Positions 30,801-46,275 of a stretch of 64,000 bases of DNA are shown piece after piece; position 1 is the stretch's first letter; the number at the start of each line of letters is the position of its first letter. Position numbers and translations under genes: made by a program. Origin of the DNA: a virus. The notes below the pieces were generated by a model. It saw only the letters and a program-made list of their open reading frames with translations, did no database searches and was not told the origin of the DNA. The stretch covers positions 43,448 to 107,447 of the IMG/VR virus record IMGVR_UViG_3300044613_002638. One strand, written 5' to 3'.

Positions 30801-31809
30801 AGGAAATTACGTCGACTACCACGCATTGTTTGCAAAAAGAGTATCTAATTCAGGTACAACCAGCTACGAAGGCTTCATAAACATAACCACTGGCGCATTA
30901 GCATATTACAACGGCACTATCTACGCCTCTTCTGGTATAGTTCCTCGTTTTGCGTGGTCGCATTGTGCGTGGTCTCATAACGGAACAACGCTTAAAATGT
31001 TCCTTAATGGTGCCGAAGTGTTTAGCCAAAATATTGCTGTTGTTGAACAAAATGTACCGTTGTATATTGGTGGACTTTTGGGCTATGCAGGAGAAAATTT
31101 CAACGGATATATGGCAGATTTCAGGATAGTTAAAGGTACTGCCGTCTATACCTCCTCTTTTACTCCACCAACTGCGCCATTGACTAACATCGCTAACACT
31201 CAACTTCTCTTAAACTTTACTAATGCCGGAATTGTGGACGTCACCGCCAAGAATGCACTTGAGGCAGTAGGGGGTGCAAGAGTTTCTAGAGTACAAAGCA
31301 AATTTGGTGGTAGTTCATTGGCGTTTGATGGAACGGGGGATTACCTAGCGTTGCCTAACTCTGTCAACCTAGATCAAACAGGTGATTTCACTCAAGAGTG
31401 CTGGTATTACAGAAGTGGCGCAGGAGATGGCAACTTAGATGTCATATTCATTAAGAACGTTACAAACTACCTATATCTTGCCGTTGATAGAAACAGCTTA
31501 AACAAAGTCGTTGTCAACCAACACAATGTTGGTAGCTTAATAACCGGCACAACGCAAACGGTAACTAATACTTGGTATCACTTGGCGGTCACAAGAAGTG
31601 GGAGCAGCGTCAGGCTATTTGTGAATGGTACTCAAGAAGGATCAACAACAACCTATTCAACCAATACAAGTGGTAGTGCTGCTTCTTATGCTGGCGGCTT
31701 CCCTGCTGCTCATGGTCTTAACGGTTACATAGACGACCTACGCATCACCCGTTTCGCCCGTTACACCGCTAACTTTACACCACCCACAGCTACTTTCAAA
31801 TTAAGATAA
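27889..31809 (+). CDS. Giant adhesin with five LamG domains, cassette 4
   Basis: 1306 residues. Residues about 60-125 resemble an IPT/TIG Ig-like fold ([20 protein letters not shown]). Residues about 130-225 resemble a putative Ig/cadherin-like domain ([20 protein letters not shown] then [14 protein letters not shown]). Five LamG_3 lectin domains follow, opening near 280 ([15 protein letters not shown]), 485, 715, 945 and 1145 ([14 protein letters not shown]), each closing with [10 protein letters not shown]-like strands. Linkers repeat [17 protein letters not shown]. It is a probable multivalent glycan-binding adhesin; no catalytic motif is visible. Confidence 0.87.
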
Positions 31810-31829
31810 GTATGTAAAAAGGTCAAACG

Positions 31830-32360
31830 ATGTCATTTCCAACCAATCCTGCTAACGGCCAAACCACTACAGTAAATGGTATCACTTACATTTACAATCA
31901 AACAAATAATGCTTGGAAGAGACAAACATTAACAGATATTGTTACCACTGGTAATATCACTGCGTCATATTTCACCCTTCTTTCGGGTATTAATTTTTCT
32001 GACAACAGCACAATTACATCTGCTGCTGTGTATGATCTTGACGAAATCTATCCTGATGGTACAATTAATACATTCGTTCCTAGGTATAATCAAAGTCAGG
32101 TCACATTAACCAGTCCTTGGAATTTACTGGTAACAATAAACGGCATTTTTCAGCCGGCGTTTGCTGAAAACTCGGATACGGTTTGGTTGAGCTCAACACT
32201 TTGCGCCAGTAGGGGCTATACCATATCCTCGGGCAATATAAAATTTGCAGATTCACCCCCGGCTGGAACTGTAGTTAATGCCCGGACTCAACCAGGCTCT
32301 AGTAATCCTACCCTAAAAATATACCCATTCAAACCAGTTGATATTGTGTTGGGTATGTAA
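31830..32360 (+). CDS. Fibre protein, cassette 5
   Basis: 176 residues. The shared start MSFPTNPANGQTTTVNGITY is followed by a short NITASYF strand and a unique domain (YDLDEIYPDGTINTFVPRYN, then WNLLVTINGIFQPAFAENSD), which is a variant of the VSINGxxQ sandwich of other fibres. It ends YPFKPVDIVLGM, comparable to LPFHPFLLSGM of cassette 4. The LamG gene ends 20 bases upstream. No MAAPN-type adaptor follows here; a much larger protein does. Confidence 0.72.
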   Translation: MSFPTNPANGQTTTVNGITYIYNQTNNAWKRQTLTDIVTTGNITASYFTLLSGINFSDNSTITSAAVYDLDEIYPDGTINTFVPRYNQSQVTLTSPWNLLVTINGIFQPAFAENSDTVWLSSTLCASRGYTISSGNIKFADSPPAGTVVNARTQPGSSNPTLKIYPFKPVDIVLGM

Positions 32361-32364
32361 CAGC

Positions 32365-32370
32365 TAAATA
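32365..32370 (+). promoter_or_regulatory. Late promoter motif TAAATA
   Basis: CAGCTAAATAAGG lies 20 bases before ATG 32391. Confidence 0.65.
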
Positions 32371-32390
32371 AGGTATATATCGGAGCAACC

Positions 32391-35300
32391 ATGGCTAGAA
32401 AAGCGATTTTAGACACTTATTATACATTTATACCAAGTACAAGAACTATTATTATACCTAGATCTTTACCTAGAGAGCGTTTTGTACTGATTACCAATGT
32501 AACTACAAATCAAGTAATTTTTAATTTTTCAGATGCTAGTTTAACAATTACCGGTCATAGCATTACTACTGATGCTGTGAACAATACCATAACCACTATT
32601 GTGTTGGCATATAACACTAGCGGCATGACCAGCACCGACAAACTGCAAATTATCATTGACGAATTTGACGAAAGTTTTAAACCTTCAGAATTATACACAG
32701 ATCCTGTAAACAAATTTAGAACAAGTACACCGCAGGCATTAATTGATACTGACTTTGAATATAGCACACAAGCTACTAAATGGGAAAGTCTTGGTTTAAC
32801 TAACAATCGTCCGTTTGCATCATGGAATACAAATAACCCAATTACCATCACTGGTGTTAATGTTACCAATGGTTCTAGAACAGTCACAGTACTAACTTCC
32901 AGTCCACCGGCTGCAGGAACACCAGTTTTTATTGTTGACACACTATTCGCAGGTGCAGATGGTTTATACATCATTGACAGTATTAGTGCTGGAACCAGTT
33001 TTTCATACACAGCTCGCAGTGCATTCACTGGTGTGACTGGTTCAATTTTTGTCAGCGGTGTCACTGCTGCATACAGCGGAACTTTGTTTAGTAATGCCGC
33101 TATCACTTTTAGCAGCATTGGGTTTAGTGGTAACTTGGTTAACGTAGTGACATCAGTGCCACATGGTTTAGCAGTTGGCAACGAAATAGCAGTGTCTGGC
33201 ACCAACCAGACTAACGCAAACGGATCATGGGTTGTATCAGGTGTAGGAAATAGTTTTTCTTTCAGTTATTATACAGTCAACGCTCCGGCTGGTAATCCCA
33301 CTGGTGGCAATGTTTATGTAAGACCCCAAGGTGCTTTCCAACATCGCGCCTATGACGGCGGTGTACAATTCAGTACATTTACCTCAAGTCATAACGAACA
33401 AATTATTAGACAAACTCGTAGATACTTCCGTTACCAGTCAGGTAAAGGTTTGCAAATGAGCACTGGCTCTACAATGAAGCCTAGTATTCAAGTTGACAGT
33501 ATTACAAGCAGCGGTACCACAGTCACAGTGATAACCAAACAAGCTCAGTTTGTACAACCAGGTTTAAACATAATTATAGCTGGCTGCAATGAAACAGCTT
33601 ACAATGGCAGTTTCACAGTGGTGCAAAGCTTAGATAGATATAGATTTACATATACTGCTGCAAGTACGCCAAGCAGCGCCATCGCTACTGGTTTTCCGCA
33701 ATTGACTGTGAATAATTGGGTAGGAGCAAGTATTAGACTAGGAATGTTTGACGATCAAAACGGATTGTTCTTTGAATTTGATGGTCAGCAATTATACGCA
33801 GTCAAAAGAAGCTCTACGTATCAAATTGGTTCATTGGGGAATGTGGCAGTAGGAGGTGCAGTGGTATCTGCAGCTACTAACAATGGTGCTACCCCCATTT
33901 TTGCTAAACAGCTGAGTCCAAATGACTTCATTAATATCAAAGGTATGACCTATCGTGTGGTTGATATTACATCAGATTCCAGTTTTACAATCACACCACC
34001 ATATCGTGGTTTGATAGCAGCTAACAATGCAGTAATTACAAAAACTATAGATCAAAGAATCTCACAAAGTCAATGGAACATTGATCGAGTTGATGGTACT
34101 GGGCCTAGCGGATACAGATTAGATCTAGGTCGTATGCAGATGTTTTATATTGATTATTCCTGGTACGGTGCAGGATTTATCCGTTGGGGTTTCCGTGGCA
34201 CCAATGGAGATATCATATACTGCCACAAACAAGCCAATAACAATATAAACTATGAAGCTTACATGCGTTCAGGTAACTTGCCAGGTAGATATGAAGTCAA
34301 TACCCTAAGTAAGTATACAATATTGTCTTCTAGTCTAGGAACTGGCGATGCTACTATAAATGTAGCAGATCATTTAGAGTTTCCTGCTGCAGGCACCTTA
34401 TGGGTGCATAACCAGACCGCAAGTGAATTTGTTACATATACAGGAAAAAGTGGTGCAGCATTATTAAGTTTTAATCTTACTTCAGGCAGTACCACAATAA
34501 CTGGCACTAATACTACCGGAATTTCTACAGGACAATATGTAGTTGCCAATGGTATCCCGTCGGGAACTACTGTGCAAAGTGTGGTAACAAACACGTCAGT
34601 GACACTGAGTCAACCTGCCACATTTACCTCTACACAAACAGTTACATTTGGTCCAACCTTCACTGGATTAACTAGAGGCAGTCCAGGTGTAACACAAACT
34701 GTAGTTCAAACTGCCAACAGCGCAGTTGTGACAGCAAGTAACACAATTAATGTAAGAGTTGGACAGTATGTAGTAGGTACTGGTATTCCTGCAGACACGT
34801 TTGTAGCTAGTGTTTCCACAAACACAAGTGTCACATTGACCGAGGCAGCAACTTCGTCGACTACGCAAGCAATGATTTTTAGCACAATGGGAACCGGTGG
34901 TCCACAGAGCTTTACCTATAGTAACACAGCTCCGGTGGCAGTAGAACTACACAGTCCCAGCTTTAGTCCTACTATCAGTCACTGGGGTACTAGTGTTATC
35001 ATGGACGGCCGTTATGATGATGATAAATCATTTGTGTTTACCCAAGGTATGACGTCTACCCTTGCCATTGCGTCAGGAGCTACGAATGCTTTACTAAGCT
35101 TTAGAATTGCTCCTAGTGTGAGTAATGGTTTGGCCGGTGGCACACTAGGTTCTAGAGAACTTATAAATCGTATGCAGATGGTTTTACGACAGTTGGACTT
35201 TACAAGCACTGGCCAATTCTTGGTGACACTTGTTCTAAATGGCTTTGCAGGCAATGGCTCGGTCAGCTGGCAGTCAGTGGGTGGTTCTAGCTTGGCCCAA

Positions 35301-35576
35301 TATGTGCCTCATCAAGGAGGCACAACCCTAACCGGCGGTGAAACAATTTATGGATTTTATCTAAATACAGCCGGTGGTTCTAACTTTACAACTACACAGC
35401 AAGAATTAGAGTTGGTAAGAGATATGGGATCAAGCATACTAGGTGGTGGAGAATCTAGGAGCAATACTGCGTTTTACCCCAATGGTCCAGATATCATTAC
35501 CATCATGGTTCGTAATATTGGATCATCAACCGCGTCATGTGCGTGTCGACTGTCATGGACTGAGGCGCAAGCATAA
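32391..35576 (+). CDS. Large conserved virion structural protein
   Basis: 1061 residues. A block FRTSTPQALIDTDFEYSTQA near residue 110, TKWESLGLTNNRPFASW, and a later region (RVDGTGPSGYRLDLGRMQMF, then WYGAGFIRWGFRG) are, from memory, conserved in large structural proteins of aquatic T4-like phages. Residues about 150-480 and 690-830 hold repeated Ser/Thr-rich beta-sandwich units (TSGTTVTVITK, GIPSGTTVQSVVTNTSVTLS and GIPADTFVASVSTNTSVTLT, a duplicated pair). It has no adhesin tip. It may be a baseplate-associated fibre or whisker; the exact role is unknown. Confidence 0.75.
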   Translation: MARKAILDTYYTFIPSTRTIIIPRSLPRERFVLITNVTTNQVIFNFSDASLTITGHSITTDAVNNTITTIVLAYNTSGMTSTDKLQIIIDEFDESFKPSELYTDPVNKFRTSTPQALIDTDFEYSTQATKWESLGLTNNRPFASWNTNNPITITGVNVTNGSRTVTVLTSSPPAAGTPVFIVDTLFAGADGLYIIDSISAGTSFSYTARSAFTGVTGSIFVSGVTAAYSGTLFSNAAITFSSIGFSGNLVNVVTSVPHGLAVGNEIAVSGTNQTNANGSWVVSGVGNSFSFSYYTVNAPAGNPTGGNVYVRPQGAFQHRAYDGGVQFSTFTSSHNEQIIRQTRRYFRYQSGKGLQMSTGSTMKPSIQVDSITSSGTTVTVITKQAQFVQPGLNIIIAGCNETAYNGSFTVVQSLDRYRFTYTAASTPSSAIATGFPQLTVNNWVGASIRLGMFDDQNGLFFEFDGQQLYAVKRSSTYQIGSLGNVAVGGAVVSAATNNGATPIFAKQLSPNDFINIKGMTYRVVDITSDSSFTITPPYRGLIAANNAVITKTIDQRISQSQWNIDRVDGTGPSGYRLDLGRMQMFYIDYSWYGAGFIRWGFRGTNGDIIYCHKQANNNINYEAYMRSGNLPGRYEVNTLSKYTILSSSLGTGDATINVADHLEFPAAGTLWVHNQTASEFVTYTGKSGAALLSFNLTSGSTTITGTNTTGISTGQYVVANGIPSGTTVQSVVTNTSVTLSQPATFTSTQTVTFGPTFTGLTRGSPGVTQTVVQTANSAVVTASNTINVRVGQYVVGTGIPADTFVASVSTNTSVTLTEAATSSTTQAMIFSTMGTGGPQSFTYSNTAPVAVELHSPSFSPTISHWGTSVIMDGRYDDDKSFVFTQGMTSTLAIASGATNALLSFRIAPSVSNGLAGGTLGSRELINRMQMVLRQLDFTSTGQFLVTLVLNGFAGNGSVSWQSVGGSSLAQYVPHQGGTTLTGGETIYGFYLNTAGGSNFTTTQQELELVRDMGSSILGGGESRSNTAFYPNGPDIITIMVRNIGSSTASCACRLSWTEAQA

Positions 35577-36187
35577 TGCTTAATTCGCAGTCTTTTCCGA
35601 TCCTGCCAATTGGGACTGAATCGACAAATTATTACCTATCATTGCAACCTAGTATATCGGGGAGAAGCACAAATCAATATGTTTCAAGTGCGCTCTCCTT
35701 CGTTCCTGGTTCTGGCACCTTTACGGCGCCAACAGTTAATATACTTTCTCAAACTATCAGTATCAATAGTAATACCGGGGCGTTGGTAGTCAAGGGCGGA
35801 GTTGGCATAAATGGAAATCTAAATTTAACAGGAACTGCTTTTATAGGTAATGTGTCTGCTACAAATACTGTGGTGTTTCCTACTGAATTCAATAACAGCA
35901 TTTCAGGACCTGTGTTTACTATTGATTGGCGAAATAGACAAAAACAAAATCTAACCCTTACTGCAAACTGTGTTTTATCATACACTGCTCCAATTGGTGT
36001 AGGTAATTTTATTTTAAAATTAATTCAAGATGGTACCGGAGGTAGATTTGTAACCTGGCCCACAGGAACACGCTGGCCAGGGGCAGTGGCACCAACACTA
36101 ACTACAACACCAAATGCTGTAGATATTGTGAGCATTTATTATGATGGCACAAACTATTATTCTCAATTTGGTTTAAACTTTGGTTAA
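35576..36187 (+). CDS. Fibre protein with conserved C-terminal domain
   Basis: 203 residues. Residues 60-105 contain TGALVVKGGVGINGNLNLTG, the common fibre module. From about 110, NNSISGPVFTIDWRNRQKQN, LTANCVLSYTAPIGVGNF, GRFVTWPTGTRWPGAV and IYYDGTNYYSQFGLNFG form a C-terminal domain seen in many phage fibres. The ATG overlaps the previous stop (TAATG), so it is probably a partner of the large structural protein. Confidence 0.78.
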   Translation: MLNSQSFPILPIGTESTNYYLSLQPSISGRSTNQYVSSALSFVPGSGTFTAPTVNILSQTISINSNTGALVVKGGVGINGNLNLTGTAFIGNVSATNTVVFPTEFNNSISGPVFTIDWRNRQKQNLTLTANCVLSYTAPIGVGNFILKLIQDGTGGRFVTWPTGTRWPGAVAPTLTTTPNAVDIVSIYYDGTNYYSQFGLNFG

Positions 36188-36730
36188 ATGTCCTATCGCA
36201 CCTTACCAGACAGTCTTGTTGTAGATCCAATAACCTCAAATAGCTATGTGCTCACCTACGGATTTTATAACACATCCACTGACGTAAGCACACTAGTTGC
36301 CAATATCACAGCAACTATTAATGAATATATATTTGCAAACAGTTCTGCCAACGTGCGAGTTTACTCTGTTTTACAAATATCCCGATTTGCAACAATAGGA
36401 GATGCACAAGAAGGGCCACCGCCTACATATACCTATCAACTTACTCCTAACATTTCATTGAATTTTGGCGCTACTTCTGTTTCGCTATATAATTCGTTGT
36501 CTTCTACTATAGTGGCCGGCGGGGCCAGTGGCGTGTACAGCAATGGATCAATAGTGGTTGATACTTTTGTTAGCACCACTTTGCCGCTTGGTTTTAGATA
36601 TAATACTTGGGCATTGACTGCAACCATAACAACGGCAATAGTAGAACCTGTGCAGACTTTTGCTAACACTGCCACAAGATTAGTGAATTTACAAGGACCC
36701 AACGCAATTTATTTTGGCATGAATTTCTAA
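36188..36730 (+). CDS. Structural protein of unknown function
   Basis: 180 residues, starting directly after the preceding stop. The pattern is all-beta and Ser/Thr/Asn/Val-rich with a GGASGVYSNGS turn near 118. It ends NLQGPNAIYFGMNF, similar to YYSQFGLNFG of the preceding protein, suggesting a shared C-terminal tag. It is the last gene of the fibre region. Confidence 0.65.
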   Translation: MSYRTLPDSLVVDPITSNSYVLTYGFYNTSTDVSTLVANITATINEYIFANSSANVRVYSVLQISRFATIGDAQEGPPPTYTYQLTPNISLNFGATSVSLYNSLSSTIVAGGASGVYSNGSIVVDTFVSTTLPLGFRYNTWALTATITTAIVEPVQTFANTATRLVNLQGPNAIYFGMNF

Positions 36731-36735
36731 AACAA

Positions 36736-37767
36736 ATGGACCCAACCACCAAAGTTTATACACTTTACGAAAAAGAAACACTACGCATTTTACAATTTTT
36801 TCAACCTAATGTCCCTCCTGTAACACCTGAGCAATATTTTGAGGAAAGATTACGTTGCGATCCAGAATGTATAGGACGACCTGCAGATCAATTTGATGTC
36901 ATTGTAGATGAACGATCGGCGTTTGAATCTGCAATGAAGGAAGCAGAAAATTATATTATAAGTGTTGATCCTGGTAAAAAAAGATTAGTATATAATCTAT
37001 TCAAACTAGTAATTAAAAATAAAACCTATAATACCCAAAGTATTAAACGAATGTTTTCATTTGAAGAAATTAAAAAAATGTATTACGAAGACTATATAAA
37101 TTTTAATATGAAAAATTTTATTCGGTCAAAAAATCTTGTGGTTAAGTTTAATTATCTATCAGATTTGAAATTGCGTAGTCATATGTTCAACAAAAATTGG
37201 AAATATTTTCATTATGATCCGTTTTTGGTAGATTCTCACAGCGATAAAACTGTACTGGGTCGGGATATTTTACAAAATGGTACATACTATCCATTAGTAG
37301 TTGGACCCTTAATTGAAGATAAACCAAATGAGAAATATGTGTTTGAAGGTAATCATAGAGCTGCCTCGTTGAAGTTGCTTCAAATGGAAGGTCTGGTACC
37401 GGAAGATTATAAAATCTGTTGTATAGAATACAAACAAAATTATGAAATGACACAGCACAGAATGCGTTATCAAAGTTTACAAACTCCGTTTCAAATTCGT
37501 GGAATAATAGAATTAGTGTACGGTAATGTGATTTTAGTTGACGACTTAAAATATCAAGCAGCTTTGAAATCTTTGCAAGAGGATGGAGGGCGAATGGTTG
37601 ATGATTACACTATAGAATGGACCGGTTGCACTTATGATGATATTTTGTTTGCTTGTCAAACTTATCCTCATTGGCTACGAGATTTATTGTATCCGTATAA
37701 ATCTAGCATTTTACCTAGCCCAGTATTCAATAACGAGAACGCATTCAATGAGTGGATAAATGAATGA
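36736..37767 (+). CDS. ParB/sulfiredoxin-like fold protein
   Basis: 343 residues. A ParB-N/sulfiredoxin-type motif lies near residue 204 (VFEGNHRAASLKLLQ), preceded by NGTYYPLVVGP. In this fold the (D/E)GNHR stretch is the nucleotide-handling site; members act as DNA-partitioning CTPases, nucleases or regulatory ATP-using proteins. The N-terminal 150 residues are unlike known ParB. It opens a tightly overlapped gene run (overlaps of 8, 4, 4 and 11 bases). No helix-turn-helix was recognised. Its role in the island is unknown. Confidence 0.6.
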   Translation: MDPTTKVYTLYEKETLRILQFFQPNVPPVTPEQYFEERLRCDPECIGRPADQFDVIVDERSAFESAMKEAENYIISVDPGKKRLVYNLFKLVIKNKTYNTQSIKRMFSFEEIKKMYYEDYINFNMKNFIRSKNLVVKFNYLSDLKLRSHMFNKNWKYFHYDPFLVDSHSDKTVLGRDILQNGTYYPLVVGPLIEDKPNEKYVFEGNHRAASLKLLQMEGLVPEDYKICCIEYKQNYEMTQHRMRYQSLQTPFQIRGIIELVYGNVILVDDLKYQAALKSLQEDGGRMVDDYTIEWTGCTYDDILFACQTYPHWLRDLLYPYKSSILPSPVFNNENAFNEWINE

Positions 37768-38755
37768 GCTCAGACACATAAGGCGAGTAGACATAGAATT
37801 ACATAGTTTTTGTAATAGAACTTGTGATTGGTGTCCTAACAAAACCTATTTACGAAACAAACAAGTTGTAATGGAAGATTGGTTGTTCTCTAAAATTCTT
37901 AGAGAACTAAACGAGTTTGGGTTTGGTCAGGATAGACAATTCGTCAACCGTAGAACAAGTGCTAGTACATTCAAAAATTATTATAGAGATTTTACAGAAA
38001 ATCAACCAGTAGTTAGCTTCTTGGGTTATATGGAGCCAATGAGCGATATTAAACTACTAAAAAAAAGAGTCAATGAAGCAAGTGAAACTTTAAATAATTT
38101 TGTTGAATTGGTATCAAACACTAGCGGCGATTATATTTCTAAAAAAAACTTAGACGGATTACTCTTGACTACTTTAAACATTATGGACTACGATTGCCAA
38201 GGCAGAGAATTTTGGGAACATAAGTTAAAAGAAGCAGGTTGTCTGATTATAGATGACGAAAATATAGGGTATAACGGAGTGATAGCTTTACATAAAACAA
38301 TTGGCAATATTAGAGTTCAACTTGATTGGCCAAAAAATTGGCTCCTGGAAAATAGAGGTGGTGCAATTTCACGCGACGAACAATCATTGGTACAAATGAA
38401 TTGGAAAAATAATGCGGTTGAAAGAAAAGTACCATGCGTAGAACCTAGTTATTTTATAAACATTACATATGATGGTAACGTAATGCCATGTTGCCATCTA
38501 AGATCTGACATTCCAATGCATAAAGATTATATTCTAGGTAATCTTAGAGATCAAACTTTGAATGAAATATTTTATGGCGAGAAAGCAGTGTCTTTTAGAG
38601 AGTCGTTGACTAAAGAAAACGGGTTTTATCCTAAACCATGTACAAACTGCCAGAAAATAAGAAACGGAGTTTGCACAGGATCGCCCAATGGCTTTGACTA
38701 TATAGGTCAAAGATACGCTAATAATGAAATAAATGAAAACATTTTTTTTACATGA
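37760..38755 (+). CDS. Radical SAM/SPASM enzyme 1
   Basis: 331 residues. The radical-SAM iron-sulfur motif CxxxCxxC is at residues 18-25 (CNRTCDWC). Auxiliary-cluster cysteines are in the C-terminal SPASM-like region: PCVEPS near 228, GNVMPCCHLRS near 245, and PCTNCQK with VCTG near 297-310. The core is split by an unusual insert around residues 45-80. A shared block MDYDCQGREFWEHKLK near 140 is mirrored in the next gene as MDYAGKGKEWWKRKVK. SPASM enzymes modify peptides or sugars by radical chemistry; the substrate here is not known. Confidence 0.85.
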   Translation: MNELRHIRRVDIELHSFCNRTCDWCPNKTYLRNKQVVMEDWLFSKILRELNEFGFGQDRQFVNRRTSASTFKNYYRDFTENQPVVSFLGYMEPMSDIKLLKKRVNEASETLNNFVELVSNTSGDYISKKNLDGLLLTTLNIMDYDCQGREFWEHKLKEAGCLIIDDENIGYNGVIALHKTIGNIRVQLDWPKNWLLENRGGAISRDEQSLVQMNWKNNAVERKVPCVEPSYFINITYDGNVMPCCHLRSDIPMHKDYILGNLRDQTLNEIFYGEKAVSFRESLTKENGFYPKPCTNCQKIRNGVCTGSPNGFDYIGQRYANNEINENIFFT

Positions 38756-39594
38756 TTAAATTAATAGAAATAGAAGTATACAATTACTGTAACAGGAAAT
38801 GTTCTTTTTGTCCTAATTCTTTACAGTCTAGTAGGCAAGATAGAAAAAATGTAAAAATTTTAGATTATTACAAATTTACTTCTTTGATAGATCAACTAAA
38901 AGAAATAAATTATTCCAACACAATCTCTTTTTCTAGATATAACGAACCCTTGGCTTTTTATGATTTAACAAAAAAATATGTTGACTATATCAAACAGAAT
39001 CTTGATTGTAAAATTGTGTCAAATACAAATGGAGATTATTTAAACATAGAAAATATTGAACTTTTTGATGAACTTACTATAATGGACTACGCAGGCAAAG
39101 GCAAGGAATGGTGGAAAAGAAAAGTAAAAAACTTGAATTTAAATTTTGTTGACAGCAAAAGCAGTGCTGAATTTTTATATTTTGAAACAATTAGCAAAAA
39201 AAATATTTTGATTTTCTTAAATTTTAAAAATAATGCCACTATAGAAGATAGAGGCGGAGTAATAAAATTAAATTCTCTCAAATATAAAAATAACGGCGAT
39301 CTTAGAACTAGACCTTGTTTTGAACCAAAAAAATTTTTAGGTATAGACTATGACGGATCGGTTATGATTTGTTGTAATATGAATAGCGAATTTCATAATG
39401 ATTATTCTATTGGAAATATATATAACATTACGCTAAATGAAATCTTAAACAGCGACAAAAGAAAACATTTTATAGATATTATGTCTAATGAAAATTATCA
39501 TAATTATTTGAATCCATGTAAAAATTGTCAAAAAGATCCAGGCAGATATACTAGAGATACCCCAGGGATTTTTTATCAAGGCGAAAGAAAATGA
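38752..39594 (+). CDS. Radical SAM/SPASM enzyme 2
   Basis: 280 residues. CxxxCxxC is at 13-20 (CNRKCSFC). The C-terminus has RPCFEPKKFLGIDYDG, VMICCNMNS and PCKNCQK, parallel to enzyme 1, plus EDRGGVI matching ENRGGAI there. So it is a diverged tandem paralogue. It is more A+T-rich than the virion genes. ATG 38752 overlaps the previous stop by four bases. Two SPASM enzymes side by side suggest either a heterodimer or two successive steps. Confidence 0.85.
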   Translation: MIKLIEIEVYNYCNRKCSFCPNSLQSSRQDRKNVKILDYYKFTSLIDQLKEINYSNTISFSRYNEPLAFYDLTKKYVDYIKQNLDCKIVSNTNGDYLNIENIELFDELTIMDYAGKGKEWWKRKVKNLNLNFVDSKSSAEFLYFETISKKNILIFLNFKNNATIEDRGGVIKLNSLKYKNNGDLRTRPCFEPKKFLGIDYDGSVMICCNMNSEFHNDYSIGNIYNITLNEILNSDKRKHFIDIMSNENYHNYLNPCKNCQKDPGRYTRDTPGIFYQGERK

Positions 39595-40244
39595 AACAAA
39601 TTGGAGTGTTTATTCCAGGTAGGTTAAGCAGCGAACGTTTACCTAATAAATTAATTTTACCGCTAGACAACACAAATTTATGGGAAATAGCCTGTGACAA
39701 GCTTAACAATCTTCCAACTCAATATAATAAATATGTTTTATGTTATGAAACAGAATTAATTAATATAGCGAAAAATTTTAAAAACATCAAGATTATAAAA
39801 AGAAGTAAGAAGACTGCCGAAGTTGATGGTCCGTTGACCTATATTTTTAAAGATTTAAAAACTACACAAGATTCACATTTAATGTTTCTAAACCCATGTT
39901 TGAGCCTACTTAAATTAGAAACCATACACCATGCTTTAGATGATTTTCGTGAATCACAATTTGATTATGCAACAAGTGTTAAAACTTATAAAAATTGGTT
40001 GTGGAATGTAAACAAAAAAATATTAACTGACATAGATTATAAAACGTTAAACACAAAATTAATAGGCGATTATTACCAAGCAGCTCATTGTTTTCATATC
40101 TTTAATAAAACTAAATTTTTTAAAACTGGAAAAATGCTGAGAAAAAATTTGCAACTCATTGAAGTGCAAGATAGTGAAACAATAGACGTAGACACAAATG
40201 AAGATTACCTCTACGTAAAATGGAGATTTACCAATGGGAAATAA
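39591..40244 (+). CDS. CMP-nonulosonate cytidylyltransferase-like (NeuA-like)
   Basis: 217 residues. The N-terminus VFIPGRLSSERLPNKLILPL matches the nucleotide-binding loop of CMP-sialate/CMP-KDO-type cytidylyltransferases (usual form IPARxGSxRxPxKN). MFLNPCLSLLKLETI near 100 resembles the QPTSPL block, and ETIDVDTNEDYLYVKW near 195 the closing D(I/V)DT motif. These enzymes activate a nonulosonic acid with CTP. The first arm lacks one usual Arg-Gly pair, so the exact sugar is uncertain. The NeuB-type gene 1.3 kb downstream supports the role. Confidence 0.7.
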   Translation: MKQIGVFIPGRLSSERLPNKLILPLDNTNLWEIACDKLNNLPTQYNKYVLCYETELINIAKNFKNIKIIKRSKKTAEVDGPLTYIFKDLKTTQDSHLMFLNPCLSLLKLETIHHALDDFRESQFDYATSVKTYKNWLWNVNKKILTDIDYKTLNTKLIGDYYQAAHCFHIFNKTKFFKTGKMLRKNLQLIEVQDSETIDVDTNEDYLYVKWRFTNGK

Positions 40245-40932
40245 ACAAGAAATATTAGCACAGTACGAGAGTAATAGAATAGAGTTTACTAATGTAGAAC
40301 TAACAAAACCATACCCTGCAATTTTTACAGATAATAATAGTTTACCTATAAAAAACTTTGGAACGCAATTCAGTGATGTAATTGAACCTTATGCTGAAGA
40401 AATACAAAATCAACTCAATGATCCTACAAAAGTTGTAATTAGACAGTTTTATGATAATAATGTTGTAAGGGCAACACTCAAAGATAATACCATAGTTAAT
40501 CCAATAGTAAATTACTTTGAAGAACTTTTTGGACGAAAAGCCAATAAAATATTAGTAAACAGAGGATACCCGTCGAGTGTGCCAAGTTATCAATCACTCA
40601 ATGATTGTGATCAAAATAATTATTGGTTAAGTCAATATTGGCATATAGCTAACTTTCCAAATGAATCATTATCTTTAGGCATTTATCTCAACGATGTTGA
40701 CATTGATGGCGGTCAAATTGAACATATTAAAAATCCAAATTATTATTTTTACAATCGATTTGTTGAAGGTAGAAGTTTAAGTAGAATTAGTAATTTAATA
40801 TTAGACGAAGATGATATAATATCAATTGTAGGACCAAAATTTACCACCTTTGCATTTGTGGCTAATTTTATACACCGAGGAACTTTTCCTCGCAATGGGC
40901 TAAGAGATTTTATTAGAATTAGATTTGATTAA
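40234..40932 (+). CDS. PhyH/2-oxoglutarate-oxygenase-like protein, active site possibly degenerate
   Basis: 232 residues. Residues 135-165 (YWHIANFPNESLSLGIYLND then GGQIEHI) and the C-terminus FIHRGTFPRNGLRDFIRIRF resemble the double-stranded beta-helix of PhyH-type iron/2-oxoglutarate oxygenases. His137, His214 and Arg224 fit two metal ligands and the 2OG-binding Arg. The usual acidic ligand (HxD/E) is Ala here (HIA), so activity is doubtful or altered. A hydroxylase acting on a sugar or peptide is possible, as is a non-enzymatic role. It overlaps the previous gene by 11 bases and the convergent gene by four. Confidence 0.5.
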   Translation: MGNKQEILAQYESNRIEFTNVELTKPYPAIFTDNNSLPIKNFGTQFSDVIEPYAEEIQNQLNDPTKVVIRQFYDNNVVRATLKDNTIVNPIVNYFEELFGRKANKILVNRGYPSSVPSYQSLNDCDQNNYWLSQYWHIANFPNESLSLGIYLNDVDIDGGQIEHIKNPNYYFYNRFVEGRSLSRISNLILDEDDIISIVGPKFTTFAFVANFIHRGTFPRNGLRDFIRIRFD

Positions 40933-41528
40933 AAACGGTATCCAAATTCTTCTATGACATTTGAAAACGATTTTTCAATCTTACTTTTAGTTTCATTTGT
41001 GTAAAGTTCTTGATAGTTTTTTACTTGCCTATACCCACTTTTTAAAAAAATTTCAAGCAATTCGTTATTGTATGGAACAGGAATATTTTGAAAATCCTCA
41101 TGCAATGATTCGTATTTTATAATTTTATCTACTATAATGTTGTCATGTAATGTGTATCTGTGCCAATCATTGAACTTGTTCAAATCTATGCAATTTAAAA
41201 AATGTTCAAAACTATGTTTGGCTATGATAGCATTTCGAGCAATTTTGTACCAAAAGTAAAAACTAACCATGGTGTCCCAAGGATTACGTACAATAGCAAA
41301 TTTAAAGTAATTCTTCCATTCAATAGGATAATTTTCAGCTACCCAACTGGCACCTATATGGTTACCGTTTTTAATAAATGTTCCAAGTCGCGGCGTGTTA
41401 TCAAAATTTGACCCTGTACAAATATCAGTAGTGGGGTCTAAATAATTGACTAAGTACTTTTCAACACTGGATCCAGCAGTTTTTTTTGTCTTAATAAATA
41501 TGAAACTGTGTTTTCTTGAAATTATCAT
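40929..41528 (-). CDS. Sulfotransferase-family protein
   Basis: 199 residues from ATG at 41528-41526. A longer frame opens with TTG at 41579 but would overlap the divergent gene and is less likely. The N-terminal SFIFIKTKKTAGSSVEKYL matches the 5'-phosphosulfate-binding loop of PAPS-dependent sulfotransferases (usual form HxPKTGGTS), and AIVRNPWDTMVSFYFWY at about 79-95 matches the 3'-phosphate-binding motif. It would transfer sulfate to a sugar or other acceptor. It is on the opposite strand to the surrounding glycan genes, with its start ten bases from the NeuB start. Confidence 0.78.
   Translation of the reverse strand: MIISRKHSFIFIKTKKTAGSSVEKYLVNYLDPTTDICTGSNFDNTPRLGTFIKNGNHIGASWVAENYPIEWKNYFKFAIVRNPWDTMVSFYFWYKIARNAIIAKHSFEHFLNCIDLNKFNDWHRYTLHDNIIVDKIIKYESLHEDFQNIPVPYNNELLEIFLKSGYRQVKNYQELYTNETKSKIEKSFSNVIEEFGYRF
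41495..41500 (+). promoter_or_regulatory. Late promoter motif inside opposite-strand gene
   Basis: TTAATAAATATGAAACTG has the same ATAAATATGAAA core as the motifs at 21481 and 27226. It lies 38 bases before the NeuB-type ATG, inside the start of the sulfotransferase gene. Confidence 0.5.
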
Positions 41529-41538
41529 GTAATTATAT

Positions 41539-42417
41539 ATGACTAACAAAATATTTTTTATAGCTGAAATTGGGATCAATCATAATGGATCCATAAAAAC
41601 AGCACTACGACTAATTAGAGAGTGCAAAGCAGCTGGAGTTAACCTAGTTAAATTTCAAAAAAGAACACCTGCTATATGCGTACCTTTGGATCAACGAAAT
41701 CAAAAAAGACAAACTCCTTGGGGCATATTAACTTATTATGATTACAAAAACAAGATTGAATTCGAAAAAAAGCACTACGACATAATTGATCGCTACTGTA
41801 AAAAAATTGGAATTCTGTGGACCGCTAGTGTGTGGGATATACCTAGTTTTAATTTTATTCAAAATTATAATGTACCATTTGTCAAAATTCCCAGTGCCTT
41901 AATTACTAATGTTAAGTTGCTAGAAGAAGTTGCTATGTTTGCTACATGTCCAGTTATTATTTCTGTAGGAATGAGCACAATAAATGAAGTAGATAGAGCT
42001 GTTAGCATATTGTCAGACAAGTTATATGCTATTCTACATTGTAACAGTTCATACCCATCAAAATACAATGAAATAGATATACGTGTTATAGAAACTTTGA
42101 AGTTAAAATATCCAAATTTAACAATTGGTTATAGCGGACACGAAAAAGACATTTTACCAAGTATAGTTGCAGCAAGTTTTGGTGCAGAGATAATCGAAAG
42201 ACATGTAACTCTTAATAAAAATATGTGGGGTACAGATCACTCTGCTAGTCTTGACATCACAGAATTAAACTTATTATTGCAAACTTTGCAAAACATAGAA
42301 ATTATTTTAGGAAAAAAGGAACTAACTGTTTACCCAAGTGAAACAGCAGCAATGCAACGTCTAAGGATTGACAGCAACTTTTTGGTAAATACTGAGTCTG
42401 GTGCTCATGGAACTTAA
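41539..42417 (+). CDS. neuB: N-acetylneuraminate synthase family (NeuB-like) enzyme
   Basis: 292 residues forming the TIM-barrel of NeuB-type synthases, which join phosphoenolpyruvate to a six-carbon amino sugar to make a nonulosonic acid (sialic, legionaminic or pseudaminic type). Clear motifs: FIAEIGINHNGSI (8-20), LVKFQKRT, TASVWD (near 95), VKIPSALITN, VGMST, LHCNSSYPS (near 170), IGYSGHE and ERHVTLNKNMWGTDHSASL (near 220). Usual NeuB proteins have a C-terminal antifreeze-like domain to about residue 340-350; this one ends near 292 and lacks most of it. The sugar made cannot be read from sequence alone. Confidence 0.9.
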   Translation: MTNKIFFIAEIGINHNGSIKTALRLIRECKAAGVNLVKFQKRTPAICVPLDQRNQKRQTPWGILTYYDYKNKIEFEKKHYDIIDRYCKKIGILWTASVWDIPSFNFIQNYNVPFVKIPSALITNVKLLEEVAMFATCPVIISVGMSTINEVDRAVSILSDKLYAILHCNSSYPSKYNEIDIRVIETLKLKYPNLTIGYSGHEKDILPSIVAASFGAEIIERHVTLNKNMWGTDHSASLDITELNLLLQTLQNIEIILGKKELTVYPSETAAMQRLRIDSNFLVNTESGAHGT

Positions 42418-42419
42418 TA

Positions 42420-43133
42420 ATGCAAAGCATTAAAAAACTATTTAGAAATATCTATTATGAAGAAGATATTTACACCCTTGCTTCTTATACAAACGGCCAA
42501 TGGAATTACGAATTAGAAAATGTTCCTAAAACTATTAACAATGTCCGTCACGGGCAAACTGCTATAGTTATAGGTAACGGATTAGATAGATTAACATTTG
42601 ATTTAAAATACTTAAAAAAAAGCAAACTGCAAACTTACGGGTGTAATGCTCTTTATAGAGATTTTAACCCAGATTTTTTGATAGCTGTAGGCACTGAAAT
42701 GTGTAATGAAATCGCAACAAGTGGTTATTGCGATAATCATGTAGTATATGCCTATGCTAGTGAAATTGTTCGGCAACCAAAGAAATTTCACTTGATTCCA
42801 CAAAACCCAACTTGGAACGCAGGATCTTTAGCAGCCTATCTGGCTTGTTTTGATGGACACACCAAAGTCTATCTACTAGGTTTTGATGGCAACGATACTC
42901 CGGGATATAGCAATAATATTTACAATAACACCCCAGGATATTACTCAGACTTCAAAGATCAAAATGACCTGTATTGGAGTCTTACAATGACACAGGTCTT
43001 TAAAACATACCTTTTTGTTGATTTTGTGTTAGTTAATAGTACTGGCAGAGGTTATATGCCTACAGCATGGCAAAATGTACCTAATTTAAGAAGAATTAGT
43101 TATAGAGATCTAGTGCTCGAGTGCGATCTCTAA
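42420..43133 (+). CDS. GT42/Maf-like putative nonulosonate glycosyltransferase
   Basis: 237 residues. TAIVIGNGLDRLTFDLKYL (47-65), TYGCNALYRDF (72-82), NPTWNAGSLAAYLACFDG (129-146) and KVYLLGFDGND (149-159) match the layout of GT42 sialyltransferases and Maf/DUF115-type proteins, which transfer sialic-type sugars (Maf proteins act on flagellins). Placed two bases after the NeuB-type gene with a cytidylyltransferase nearby, it is a good candidate for the transferase step. Similarity is by motif pattern, and a catalytic His was not identified. The 3' end overlaps the convergent Nudix gene by 24 bases. Confidence 0.6.
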   Translation: MQSIKKLFRNIYYEEDIYTLASYTNGQWNYELENVPKTINNVRHGQTAIVIGNGLDRLTFDLKYLKKSKLQTYGCNALYRDFNPDFLIAVGTEMCNEIATSGYCDNHVVYAYASEIVRQPKKFHLIPQNPTWNAGSLAAYLACFDGHTKVYLLGFDGNDTPGYSNNIYNNTPGYYSDFKDQNDLYWSLTMTQVFKTYLFVDFVLVNSTGRGYMPTAWQNVPNLRRISYRDLVLECDL

Positions 43134-43550
43134 AGCTGATTCAAATGTTTTTATTTTGTCAATAATACAATTAAAACTAAAAGTTCTCCATACACCAGGG
43201 TGAAGTGGTTTAGGACAATCGTTGATAGTAGTCCATGCATAACCTCGATGTTCAGAGTTTAGTTGTGGTATAAATTCATCATCAACTGTTATTAAATAGG
43301 TATGATATTCAAAACTGGTGTTTTCTGCTGTAAATTTTTCTAAAGGTATTATTTTTAAAATTTCAATGTCGCCAATTTCTTCGTTGATTTCTCTTCTTAG
43401 TGCATTTATGGGAGTTTCGTTTTGCTCAACACCACCGCCAACCAAACCCCATGATCCTGAATGTTTTTTTTGATTTCTTAACAAAAACAAATATCGATGA
43501 GTTTTTTTACTATAAATTAAAGCACCACATCCTATATTACTATTGACCAT
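43110..43550 (-). CDS. Nudix hydrolase
   Basis: 146 residues with a full Nudix box at 39-61: GGVEQNETP, then REINEEIGD (G-x5-E-x7-RE-U-x-EE-x-G-U). These enzymes hydrolyse nucleoside diphosphates linked to another group, such as nucleotide sugars or damaged nucleotides. GxW before the box (SGSWGLVGGGVE) resembles the GDP-mannose/NTP-type subgroup, but the substrate is open. It starts inside the end of gp15 on the same strand (19-base overlap), so it is translationally coupled to a structural gene, and it converges on the glycan genes. Confidence 0.88.
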   Translation of the reverse strand: MVNSNIGCGALIYSKKTHRYLFLLRNQKKHSGSWGLVGGGVEQNETPINALRREINEEIGDIEILKIIPLEKFTAENTSFEYHTYLITVDDEFIPQLNSEHRGYAWTTINDCPKPLHPGVWRTFSFNCIIDKIKTFESALEIALEH

Positions 43551-44890
43551 TCGCCGCCTCGATATACACCTTCTACACTTTTAACCCATTCACTACCAGT
43601 CCATCTGTACTGTATACCAGTAAGATTATTAAGTATATATTCCATTGAAGTTTCAGTGTCGCTATCAAATACAACTTGCCACGATGATCCATTGTATTGA
43701 ATAATATCGTTAGCATTTGCCACCAGGTCCCCCCATACTACGCTACCATCTAGGTTACTGAGACTGCCAATATCGTCGGTCAATAAATATCTAGTATTTG
43801 CACTTGGTGCCAATAAGTTGCTATCAACTTTTACATTTTGAGGATTAATAATTGCATCAACTGGCATTAATGTATTTGACGGAAGTGTGTCTTCAAACGG
43901 ATCATATAGTAGAATGTATGGATCGGTGGGATGATATGCTATTGTGCCGATTAACTCTGCTCCAGTAGGCAAAGCTAATCTAATTTCTGTTGTACCTGTT
44001 ACTAGAGTTCCATAAATTTCTATTACCGATTTCCAGGTTACCGGTGGTTGCACATTTATGATATTATTGTTATCATCGACAACTTCTTGATATTTTAATA
44101 ACTGTAGTTGGTTGCCAGTGTATAATATTCCATAATCCAATGGGGTTACATATCTTCTAGATACTAAGTTAGTTAATAAAGTATTTTCATTGAGCATGCC
44201 TTGTTCGTCGTATATGCTGCCTATAAATTTTTGAATTACGCCCAAGCGTTTTACTTTAGCAGGTGCGCTTATCCAAATTGGCATTGTAAATGTTAGTGTA
44301 GCAACATCAATGGGTTCTTCTGTTCCAGCTGGTATTACTCTAGATGTCCACAACACACTTGTTAGCTGTACATAGCTCAAACTGGCCCAATCAATGTAAT
44401 TGTCAGTGCTTTGAATTTCAAATGAAGGATTAAACAATACAGCCAATTGTTCAATCAATTGCATTTTTTGTTCGGTATTACTAGTCCATATATCTAATTT
44501 GACTTCGAGATTATAAGGAACTGGCATTAATCGTTCAATGGTATAACTGTCGCCTTGTTGATTTGAATAAAGTCCTGTTTCTGGATCGTATTGCCGTTCT
44601 CGTAACTGCATTTTACTTACAAAATAAGGCTCTTGGACTCTAGTTTGATCGTAAGTAAAACCACTGATATAGGCACTCATTGCCGGTACTGCATTCATTA
44701 TATTTTCGCTGTTTTGTTTAAGTATTGTGGCTGCTTGTCTGCTAGGGTCACCATAATAAACAGGAACTCTTTGTAACGTTCTTACACCATCTCGGTCCTT
44801 GCCAAATTCTACGTCAAAGTTACTTACGATTCTTATAAATTGAATTAAGAATCTTCTTATTTGCGCATCGTAAAAGAATTGTTGAGCCAT
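43532..44890 (-). CDS. 15: Tail completion/sheath stabiliser (gp15-like)
   Basis: 452 residues. The N-terminal 260 residues match T4 gp15, which caps the tail tube and sheath: FYDAQIRRFLIQFIRIVSNF near the start, LQRVPVYYGD near 40 and MPVPYNLEVKLDIWTSN near 135. T4 gp15 is 272 residues. The extra ~180 residues include two small WxxGSxW-type motifs (IQYNGSSWQVV, YRWTGSEWVKS), similar to modules in gp14, gp18 and the fibres. It is minus-strand, with one base of overlap with gp14. Confidence 0.75.
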   Translation of the reverse strand: MAQQFFYDAQIRRFLIQFIRIVSNFDVEFGKDRDGVRTLQRVPVYYGDPSRQAATILKQNSENIMNAVPAMSAYISGFTYDQTRVQEPYFVSKMQLRERQYDPETGLYSNQQGDSYTIERLMPVPYNLEVKLDIWTSNTEQKMQLIEQLAVLFNPSFEIQSTDNYIDWASLSYVQLTSVLWTSRVIPAGTEEPIDVATLTFTMPIWISAPAKVKRLGVIQKFIGSIYDEQGMLNENTLLTNLVSRRYVTPLDYGILYTGNQLQLLKYQEVVDDNNNIINVQPPVTWKSVIEIYGTLVTGTTEIRLALPTGAELIGTIAYHPTDPYILLYDPFEDTLPSNTLMPVDAIINPQNVKVDSNLLAPSANTRYLLTDDIGSLSNLDGSVVWGDLVANANDIIQYNGSSWQVVFDSDTETSMEYILNNLTGIQYRWTGSEWVKSVEGVYRGGEWSIVI

Positions 44891-46275
44891 TAATTATCTG
44901 CCTTGGGTCTTAAAGCCTGGCTTAAACTTTGCCTACTAGTGACTTCGCCAGTGTTGTTTACAAATGTACTGGTGTTATTAATAAAGTAACTACGTAATGT
45001 AGTGTTATCAGGACCTTGAGTTAGTGTAGTCCTTACATTATCTTCTATTTTTACCCAGCGTCTGCCGTCCCATCTAAATAACCTATTAGGCAGATAATCA
45101 GTGCGTAAAGCATAATCGCCTACTAGCGGATTATTAGGAAATGCTATTCCAGAAAATACTGGTAAACCATTTGGTGCTGAGCCTGTGCCGGTTAAGTAAC
45201 CTTGAACAGTAGCATCAGGACTTTCAATGCCGCTGTCGGCATCTACTGTAACATTATCTCCTGTTGAAATATTGTTATCAGCCGAAACACCTGATGGGTC
45301 TCCTGGACTACCATCGGGTTGGGTAGGTTTGATGTATAAAGTGCTAATGTCATAACCACTAAACGGAACATTAGTTTCTGCTTCACGTAATATCGCATCA
45401 TTAATTTCTATGTACTTGTTTACAATGCTAGATACAGATCCCAATGATACATTGCCTGTATTTCCTGTTATTGGATCAATATCAACTTTTATTTGATTTA
45501 AAATATCTTTATATTCTTGACTATCTGTAAGTGGATTTATTTTAACACGCCATAAATGCGGCCACCATGTTGCAGAATATCCTTCTGCAGCATTATTACA
45601 ATCACTAATTACATAGTATCTTTTTAGAGCCACTGGTATGCTATCATCAAGGGGGTAGTAATCTTTAAGATGCATGAGTTCAATGACATCACCTGGCATT
45701 AATTTTCTGCCTAAACTAGCAACTAAGTCATTAATATGAAACACCATGAATAAAGTTCCAGTTTGCAGGAACATGCCAAATTGGCTGAGATCAAATGTTA
45801 CGTCTTGTGTTTGATATATCCCTCGCAATGAATAAACATTAGGATCATATTTTCTATCACGATTTTCTAAAAACAAAAGATCTTGTATGTTAAGAGCAGA
45901 TTCATTAATATAGCTAGGCTTGGCTGCATCAGTATAAAATTTTACAGTTGCGCCTGATGACAATGCACTTGTAGTACTAGCGGTAAGTGTTATTGTATTT
46001 GCTGTTTTAGCAGATACCTGGGTACCTGTAGCGATACCAGTAGCAGTTACAAACATACCTAGATCAATGTCTGATGTTGAAGAAAACGAAAGTATGTTGC
46101 CTGCAACGGGCTGGGCCGAACTTGTTGTTTTTGTTAAATTTTGCTCAGTTGTACCAAGATATTTGTGTACCAAGATGCCAGTTCCGCCAACAGTGAACAT
46201 TTCACTGATATTGCGGTCAATGTATTTGTAGTCGTTACTATGAGCTCCGTCTTTCCAAAGCGATAATCTTGGCAC
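44890..46275 (-). CDS. 14: Neck protein (gp14-like)
   Basis: 461 residues starting with GTG at 46275 (MPRLSLWKDGAHSNDYKYID), with AACAGGAAACAATT before it as a ribosome-binding region. The core FLENRDRKYDPNVY near 130, then GMFLQTGTLFMVFHINDLVA and LMPGDVIELMHLKDYYPLDD, is what I recall of gp14-like neck proteins in aquatic T4-like phages; similarity to T4 gp14 itself is low. It has an inserted Thr/Ala-rich segment near 50-110 and an LFRWDGRRWVKIED module near 400. Pairing with gp15 supports the call. It joins the head to the tail. Confidence 0.62.
   Translation of the reverse strand: MPRLSLWKDGAHSNDYKYIDRNISEMFTVGGTGILVHKYLGTTEQNLTKTTSSAQPVAGNILSFSSTSDIDLGMFVTATGIATGTQVSAKTANTITLTASTTSALSSGATVKFYTDAAKPSYINESALNIQDLLFLENRDRKYDPNVYSLRGIYQTQDVTFDLSQFGMFLQTGTLFMVFHINDLVASLGRKLMPGDVIELMHLKDYYPLDDSIPVALKRYYVISDCNNAAEGYSATWWPHLWRVKINPLTDSQEYKDILNQIKVDIDPITGNTGNVSLGSVSSIVNKYIEINDAILREAETNVPFSGYDISTLYIKPTQPDGSPGDPSGVSADNNISTGDNVTVDADSGIESPDATVQGYLTGTGSAPNGLPVFSGIAFPNNPLVGDYALRTDYLPNRLFRWDGRRWVKIEDNVRTTLTQGPDNTTLRSYFINNTSTFVNNTGEVTSRQSLSQALRPKADN

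Follow-up and report, generated by a model that had tools for sequence, protein, structure and literature searches.

In Bacteroides thetaiotaomicron and Prymnesium parvum, mannose-6-phosphate is converted through 2-keto-3-deoxynononic acid (KDN) 9-phosphate to KDN and finally to its cytidine monophosphate (CMP) conjugate, CMP-KDN (PMC6200933). The radical S-adenosylmethionine (SAM) enzyme BtrN carries out the two-electron oxidation of a cyclitol hydroxyl (PMC9012708), and in a mycobacteriophage announcement capsid glycosylation was inferred from two putative glycosyltransferases (PMC11256854). We examined 64 kb (the window) out of the 107,447-bp virus record IMGVR_UViG_3300044613_002638; genes are named here by their lower coordinate in the window. 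Between genes 32391 and 42420, at 35577-42428, we identified a cassette whose mobility is supported by homology. The cassette shares a NeuB-type synthase and a cytidylyltransferase with the CMP-KDN pathway, to which relatives of the cassette add a HAD-type hydrolase and a PF01050 cupin, and it differs from that pathway by radical SAM enzymes and a ParB-fold protein. It would resemble mycobacteriophage virion glycosylation in that phage enzymes decorate their own particle, but in mycobacteriophages glycosyltransferases use host sugars, whereas here a set for the synthesis and activation of a sugar acid lies beside fibre genes. We tentatively favour the reading that the cassette makes a CMP-activated, radical-SAM-modified nonulosonic acid, possibly of the KDN type, which would most likely decorate the phage's own fibres.

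The inserted block and its enzymes

The virus is a T4-like contractile-tail phage, in which tail sheath, sheath stabilizer, head-tail adaptor, baseplate wedge and virion structural families were recognised with PHROG; no tRNA was found in the window. Another IMG/VR record (L002) contains near-identical DNA (100%), and L001 is a relative at 83% identity. A third locus, L009, lacks the block: blastn aligned window 31720-35576 with L009 715-4573 (76.7%) and window 42429-44715 with L009 4594-6880 (77.9%), the homologues of 32391 and 42420 are adjacent in L009, and 6.85 kb of window DNA are missing between them. Identity to L009 was 88% in the structural gene 32391 (1061 amino acids) and 72% in 42420. 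The block runs from the end of 32391, the last of the large virion genes, to the beginning of 42420 and comprises genes 35576, 36188, 36736, 37760, 38752, 39591, 40234, 40929 (opposite strand) and 41539 (Table 1). Several neighbouring genes overlap by 4-11 bases, an operon-like (translationally coupled) arrangement. The first-pass annotation of this DNA had named a unit of three genes, 39591, 41539 and 42420. All three reading frames were found where it had placed them, but its boundaries were wrong, since the block holds five further enzyme-like genes, and almost the whole of 42420 lies outside it. In a comparison of the window with L001, the ratio of nonsynonymous to synonymous substitutions (dN/dS) was 0.03-0.15 for the seven cassette genes tested, which shows that these genes are maintained. 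Homology supports the NeuB and cytidylyltransferase assignments, the radical SAM class and the ParB fold, as well as mobility, the linkage to fibres and purifying selection.

By its sequence, 41539 is beyond doubt a NeuB synthase, as previously proposed. The NeuB TIM-barrel domain scored 223 bits (Pfam cut-off 22.1), and in an alignment to meningococcal NeuB (NmNeuB) residues E25, K129, H215, H236 and D247 correspond to E10, K116, H201, H222 and D233 of 41539, respectively, so that the catalytic Glu, Lys and Asp and both metal-binding His are conserved. TIM barrel, catalytic and metal residues are the same as in the enzymes of N. meningitidis (1xuu) and Leptospira (6ncs; PF03102), whereas the C-terminal SAF (antifreeze-like) domain is absent from 41539: the protein stops at 292 amino acids and gave no SAF match. 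The Arg contributed by the SAF domain (R314 in NmNeuB) is hence missing. Related NeuB open reading frames (ORFs) are short too, with a median of 278 amino acids (n=124). The scores of 41539 were under the NCBIfam equivalog cut-offs, and its dN/dS (window against L001) was 0.07.

The assignment of 39591 as the cytidylyltransferase for CMP-activation is also supported. The gene carries the Pfam domain PF02348 (41.3 bits, cut-off 22.6) and an intact cytidine triphosphate (CTP) motif, in agreement with the earlier description as CMP-nonulosonate cytidylyltransferase-like. The N-terminal GRLxSxRLPxK and the DxD are invariant in its subfamily, whose profile matched the CMP-N-acetylneuraminic acid (Neu5Ac) synthetase 6ifd (E 0.0019). 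PseF, the nearest NCBIfam model, was rejected as an identity for 39591 (30.3 bits, cut-off 205.7).

Two radical SAM genes, 37760 and 38752, precede it. Against the PDB, the profile of their family matched BtrN (E 2.1e-37) far more strongly than the next structure, the peptide epimerase YydG (E 1.6e-5), which favours sugar chemistry over peptide chemistry. The family has the same domain order as BtrN (2-deoxy-scyllo-inosamine dehydrogenase, 4m7s), together with the CxxxCxxC, the four auxiliary-cluster Cys in the alignment and the NRGG Arg; it differs in that the phage cassette contains no cyclitol pathway and carries two radical SAM copies in tandem. The cluster Cys of 37760 are 18/22/25 and 226/244/294/297. 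Across the alignment, the three radical-SAM Cys and the NRGG Arg were invariant (19/19 each), and the auxiliary-cluster Cys were present in 18-19 of the 19 sequences. This Arg is the catalytic one in BtrN.

These domains also bear on another explanation, a modification resembling that of ribosomally synthesised and post-translationally modified peptides, in which the SPASM-type radical SAM enzymes would act directly on 36188/35576, while NeuB and 39591 would supply something else. SPASM domains are common in peptide maturases and a small protein accompanies the enzymes here, but the best solved relative is a small-molecule cyclitol dehydrogenase, with YydG far behind, and no leader-peptide-like gene was recognised. 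We regard peptide modification as improbable.

The best Foldseek matches of 36736 were sulfiredoxin and ParB bound to cytidine diphosphate (CDP), both with probability 1.00. A PDB profile search with this protein gave no match; its support as a ParB/sulfiredoxin-fold protein of predicted function thus comes from the modelled fold. The family keeps an EGxHR motif (E204, G205, H207 and R208 invariant). Gene 40234 had no match in the Pfam or PDB profile searches and therefore stays a putative 2-oxoglutarate (2OG)-Fe(II) oxygenase. At its residue 139, the window has HxA in place of the HxD found in L001, L089, L091 and L093. HxA is the signature of 2OG halogenases; judging from the motif, loss of function is as likely as a halogenase. 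Finally, the sulfotransferase gene is intact in the window, and its counterpart in L001 (5257-5907, minus strand) has an in-frame stop.

Table 1. Features of the cassette and its surroundings, in window coordinates.
Feature	Coordinates	Strand	Basis
Inserted block, absent from relative L009	35577..42428	.	blastn flanks
Small tail-fibre protein	35576..36187	+	PHROG tail fiber; blastp 48-58% to L089/L092
Small fibre-like protein co-travelling with the cassette; candidate acceptor or adhesin tip	36188..36730	+	Co-occurrence
ParB/sulfiredoxin-fold protein, GNHR nucleotide-binding motif	36736..37767	+	AlphaFold pLDDT 88, Foldseek
Radical SAM/twitch enzyme, BtrN-like alcohol dehydrogenase	37760..38755	+	SPASM E 1.6e-13
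Second radical SAM/twitch enzyme, BtrN-like	38752..39594	+	Radical_SAM E 2e-8, SPASM E 1.8e-13
CMP-nonulosonate cytidylyltransferase, mainly phage subfamily (motif LMFLNPCL)	39591..40244	+	CTP_transf_3 E 1.9e-10
Putative 2OG-Fe(II) oxygenase	40234..40932	+	Motif alignment only
Sulfotransferase, convergent, not in the conserved cassette core	40929..41579	-	Sulfotransfer_2 E 1.2e-8
NeuB nonulosonate synthase, TIM barrel only	41539..42417	+	Pfam NeuB E 4.9e-66
MptE/DUF115/GT42-superfamily protein, outside the cassette	42420..43133	+	Profile, fold, conserved neighbourhood
NUDIX hydrolase, conserved neighbour of 42420	43110..43550	-	NUDIX E 6.6e-18; in 32/80 loci
Tail sheath stabilizer-like structural protein, conserved neighbour of 42420	43532..44890	-	PHROG; in 34/80 loci

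The cassette in other phages and its linkage to fibre genes

We defined cassette loci as those with the 39591 subfamily (45 loci, about 16 distinct lineages once near-copies were removed) and compared them with 153 other loci. Radical SAM, NeuB and ParB-like genes were present in 41, 41 and 38 of the 45 cassette loci, against 3, 71 and 2 of the 153 others, respectively; the fetching queries bias the NeuA and NeuB counts, and the radical SAM and ParB counts are unbiased in loci fetched through NeuB. Roughly a dozen further phage lineages have the core (ParB-like, radical SAM, cytidylyltransferase and NeuB genes), placed after or amid their fibre genes, and all of them lack 42420. L089 and L092 keep the order 35576-domain, 36188, ParB, radical SAM, radical SAM, cytidylyltransferase, 2OG oxygenase and NeuB. 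Identity to these two loci was 43-68% for five of the six enzymes and 28-48% for the 2OG oxygenase, and their neck and sheath matched only over short stretches (33-37%). The matches of L122, L168 and L187 to the window were confined to cassette genes, which points to horizontal transfer between unrelated phages. In a tree of 62 phage NeuBs, those of the cassettes fell on one side, where L091 (a truncated cassette) and L125 (a ParB-like gene and NeuB amid structural and fibre-like genes) were also placed; basal support was weak (75/87). A tblastn search of 39591, 37760, 36736 and 36188 against 50,697 GenBank phage records gave no match, nor did a megablast of 36736-46275 against GenBank phages. 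Searches of the open-licence literature yielded no previous account of the cassette, which is not proof of absence.

Some loci hold larger arrays of the same genes. L195 (8027-12387) and L174 (8178-9663), which belong to the same contig, have two ParB-like and three BtrN-like radical SAM genes in tandem, immediately following very long fibre-like proteins; further cassette parts lie elsewhere on that contig. Ahead of the cytidylyltransferase and NeuB, L176 (2-9642) has several genes of the ParB-like and radical SAM types, as well as genes for a U32-peptidase-like protein and a GT4 glycosyltransferase.

The first-pass annotation had set the sugar genes beside Ser/Thr/Asn-rich fibres. These upstream proteins are indeed virion structural proteins and fibres according to PHROG and composition, and the association with fibres is better supported than that annotation could know: the cassette adjoins fibre genes in several unrelated phages, and 36188 travels with it. 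Tail-fibre, tail-fibre-assembly or minor tail PHROGs lie beside the cassette in L092, L122, L168, L169 and L187. Of these, L168 and L169 are contigs from Clostridia and Bacteroides metagenome-assembled genomes, which indicates groups that can be cultured. Using composition as a proxy, a fibre-like ORF lay no more than 300 bp away in 7 of the 16 cassette representatives, compared with 1 of the 63 other NeuB loci of phages (Fisher p 2.8e-5, which is optimistic because the rows are related); the proxy misses some of the PHROG-supported cases. The C-terminal domain of 35576 is common to the cassette phages L089/L092, and the 36188 family was found in 20 of 45 cassette loci and in none of the 153 others. 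A relative of 36188 lies directly before the ParB gene in L184 (E 1e-9), and another, carrying a Cna_B adhesin domain, directly after NeuB in L187 (E 1e-8).

Several observations weigh against a role in fibre modification. A direct scan for the 36188 family, of low sensitivity, recovered only the virus of the window and L001, and the link between 36188 and the cassette is therefore based on loci fetched by other queries; moreover, the family accompanies only about 6 of about 15 cassette lineages. No recognised fibres adjoin the L094-type loci or L170. Position alone is no proof of fibre modification either, because the region behind fibres is a common hotspot for phage cargo.

This last point leads to the possibility that the block is passive cargo, i.e. 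host-derived enzymes trapped at a recombination hotspot and irrelevant to the biology of the fibre. The insertion lies exactly in an intergenic gap, and such gaps are hotspots. However, all the genes tested are under purifying selection and the same gene set recurs in distant phages; in addition, the 39591 subfamily was found in 21 viral loci, and the single scan of bacterial genomes gave only 3 loci, 2 of which were phage DNA. Passive carriage thus seems to us a poor explanation.

The adjoining gene 42420

The first-pass annotation had proposed three steps, with 42420 transferring the CMP-sugar made by NeuB and 39591. Synthesis and activation stood, as shown above; 42420 as the dedicated transfer partner did not. 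On its own, 42420 matched no Pfam family (0 families), and a weak CST-I Pfam match appeared in 6 of 47 relatives; support for an MptE-like/DUF115 domain was likewise weak. A profile of these 47 relatives matched the GT42 sialyltransferases CstI and CstII in the PDB (CstI E 4.4e-5), and the AlphaFold model of 42420 (pLDDT 92) matched MptE/HPPK and GT29 sialyltransferases in Foldseek, with TM values of at most 0.40. Its matches in a viral library were uncharacterised phage proteins, one DUF115 protein and one MptE-like protein. Profile and predicted fold thus indicate that the GT42/MptE-like superfamily is right for 42420, with a putative sialyltransferase activity. In contrast to the known GT42, MptE-DUF115 and Maf proteins, it has neither its own Pfam match nor linkage to NeuB, and no GT42 catalytic His was found in the alignment: no conserved His lies downstream of the GFD motif in the family, and His147, 89% conserved, lies upstream of it.

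None of the 80 viral loci retrieved with the 42420 family contained NeuB, NeuA, a radical SAM or a ParB-like gene, and NeuB was absent from all 29 family records searched whole, two of them of 141 kb and 355 kb; many of the records are fragments, so that absence is no proof for any one of them, and the pattern is uniform. A fibre or structural gene nearly always preceded the 42420 homologue (13 loci drawn), and a NUDIX gene and structural genes on the other strand followed it in nearly all those loci among L009-L042 and L045 that reach far enough. Judging from these neighbourhoods, 42420 belongs to the core genes of this phage lineage; in dozens of relatives it follows the last fibre gene. In the window, the NUDIX gene (43110-43550) is convergent with 42420. 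A distant homologue in Pelagibacter phage HTVC008M (L007, 1306-4983) adjoins a Nod-like carbamoyltransferase and 2OG oxygenases, a glycan-type setting without NeuB.

It could still be argued that 42420 acts as a Maf-like transferase of the CMP-ulosonate onto Ser/Thr of the fibres. The gene starts 3 bases past the NeuB stop codon and is thus probably co-transcribed, the profile and fold matches and the DUF115 relatives fit such an activity, and the family is located behind fibre genes throughout. The earlier description as GT42/Maf-like was right as to fold and superfamily, but the Maf link to a CMP-nonulosonate pathway was missing in 80/80 loci, the other cassette lineages do without 42420, and the GT42 catalytic His has no conserved counterpart in the alignment. 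On the first two of these grounds we rejected the idea that 42420 is a partner dedicated to NeuB, and we consider its use as the fibre transferase unlikely.

Probable product, target and significance

Under our favoured reading, the substrates, the order of the steps, the product, the transferase, the acceptor and the target (fibres or host) are what we infer from the gene set. NeuB would condense phosphoenolpyruvate with a hexose or hexose phosphate into an ulosonic acid, and 39591 would activate it with CTP. The two BtrN-like enzymes may oxidise a hydroxyl on the sugar or its precursor, 36736 would be a nucleotide-binding accessory enzyme, perhaps a kinase, and in the phage of the window the 2OG oxygenase and the sulfotransferase may tailor the sugar further. 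The most likely destination of the product would be the tip of the phage's own fibres, and 35576/36188 are candidates for the acceptor.

The backbone is probably of the KDN type rather than Neu5Ac, because in other cassettes the space from the cytidylyltransferase to NeuB also holds a HAD-type hydrolase and a cupin: a small HAD-like hydrolase, with weak HAD matches, in several of them, and a mannose-6-phosphate-isomerase-like cupin (PF01050) in L104/L122. As a set, an isomerase, a synthase, a phosphatase and a CMP-transferase would correspond to the KDN route of PMC6200933. The weakness of the HAD matches counts against this proposal, as does the result that a PF00702 search found no HAD hydrolase in the record of the window; for the hydrolase step, this phage could use host enzymes. 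Inspection of the cassette by eye revealed no precursor genes of the NeuC or Pse/Leg type; a systematic search for them was not made. Fibre decoration by the phage is further weakened on the side of the transferase: the cassette holds no recognised dedicated glycosyltransferase, and searching the 107-kb record for GT2 and GT4 families found nothing.

Lacking a transferase, the cassette could instead be served by host enzymes, with the CMP-sugar fed to host transferases that recoat lipopolysaccharide, capsule or teichoic acid and thereby block superinfection or aid release. Surface conversion is a well-known phage strategy, and most other phage NeuB genes belong to polysaccharide-type clusters, e.g. 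L005, and L006 with its GT29 sialyltransferases. On the other hand, this cassette, unlike other NeuB loci, lies with fibre genes in many unrelated phages and has a fibre-like protein travelling with it, and it contains no epimerases, aminotransferases or transferases of the surface-polysaccharide type. We consider a change of the host surface possible, if rather doubtful.

The two clusters just named differ in content. In L006 (LR756508, a 484-kb phage), GT29 sialyltransferase genes at 8262-8894 and 10993-11676 (Pfam E 1.6e-26 and 7.9e-32) flank NeuB, and similar ORFs follow; it is a better case of three-step phage sialylation than the window. In L005 (Marine virus AG-345-L05, 6361-10816), NeuB is clustered with SDR, cytidylyltransferase-like, aminotransferase-like, HAD-like and GT42-like ORFs, assigned by eye except for NeuB.

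A bolder version of fibre decoration would see here a widespread, unrecognised class of phages with their own pathway for a new radical-SAM-oxidised nonulosonic acid, attached to a co-travelling fibre-tip protein. The sugar chemistry would set host range or hide the fibre, and 36736, with its CTP/CDP-binding fold, would act on the cytidine-linked sugar and might be the missing transferase. We offer this as speculation that is more probably wrong than right by a wide measure.

Phage sugar genes are usually read as tools that alter the host. A compact cassette for making and activating a sugar acid that often touches fibre genes, and that moves between unrelated phages in the company of a fibre-like protein, suggests instead that the attachment organelle of some phages receives a dedicated glycan which they build themselves. 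If true, this would add to host-range evolution a chemical layer that is invisible to the comparison of fibre sequences alone. The cassette also makes small radical-SAM sugar oxidases and NeuB enzymes of a single domain readily available.

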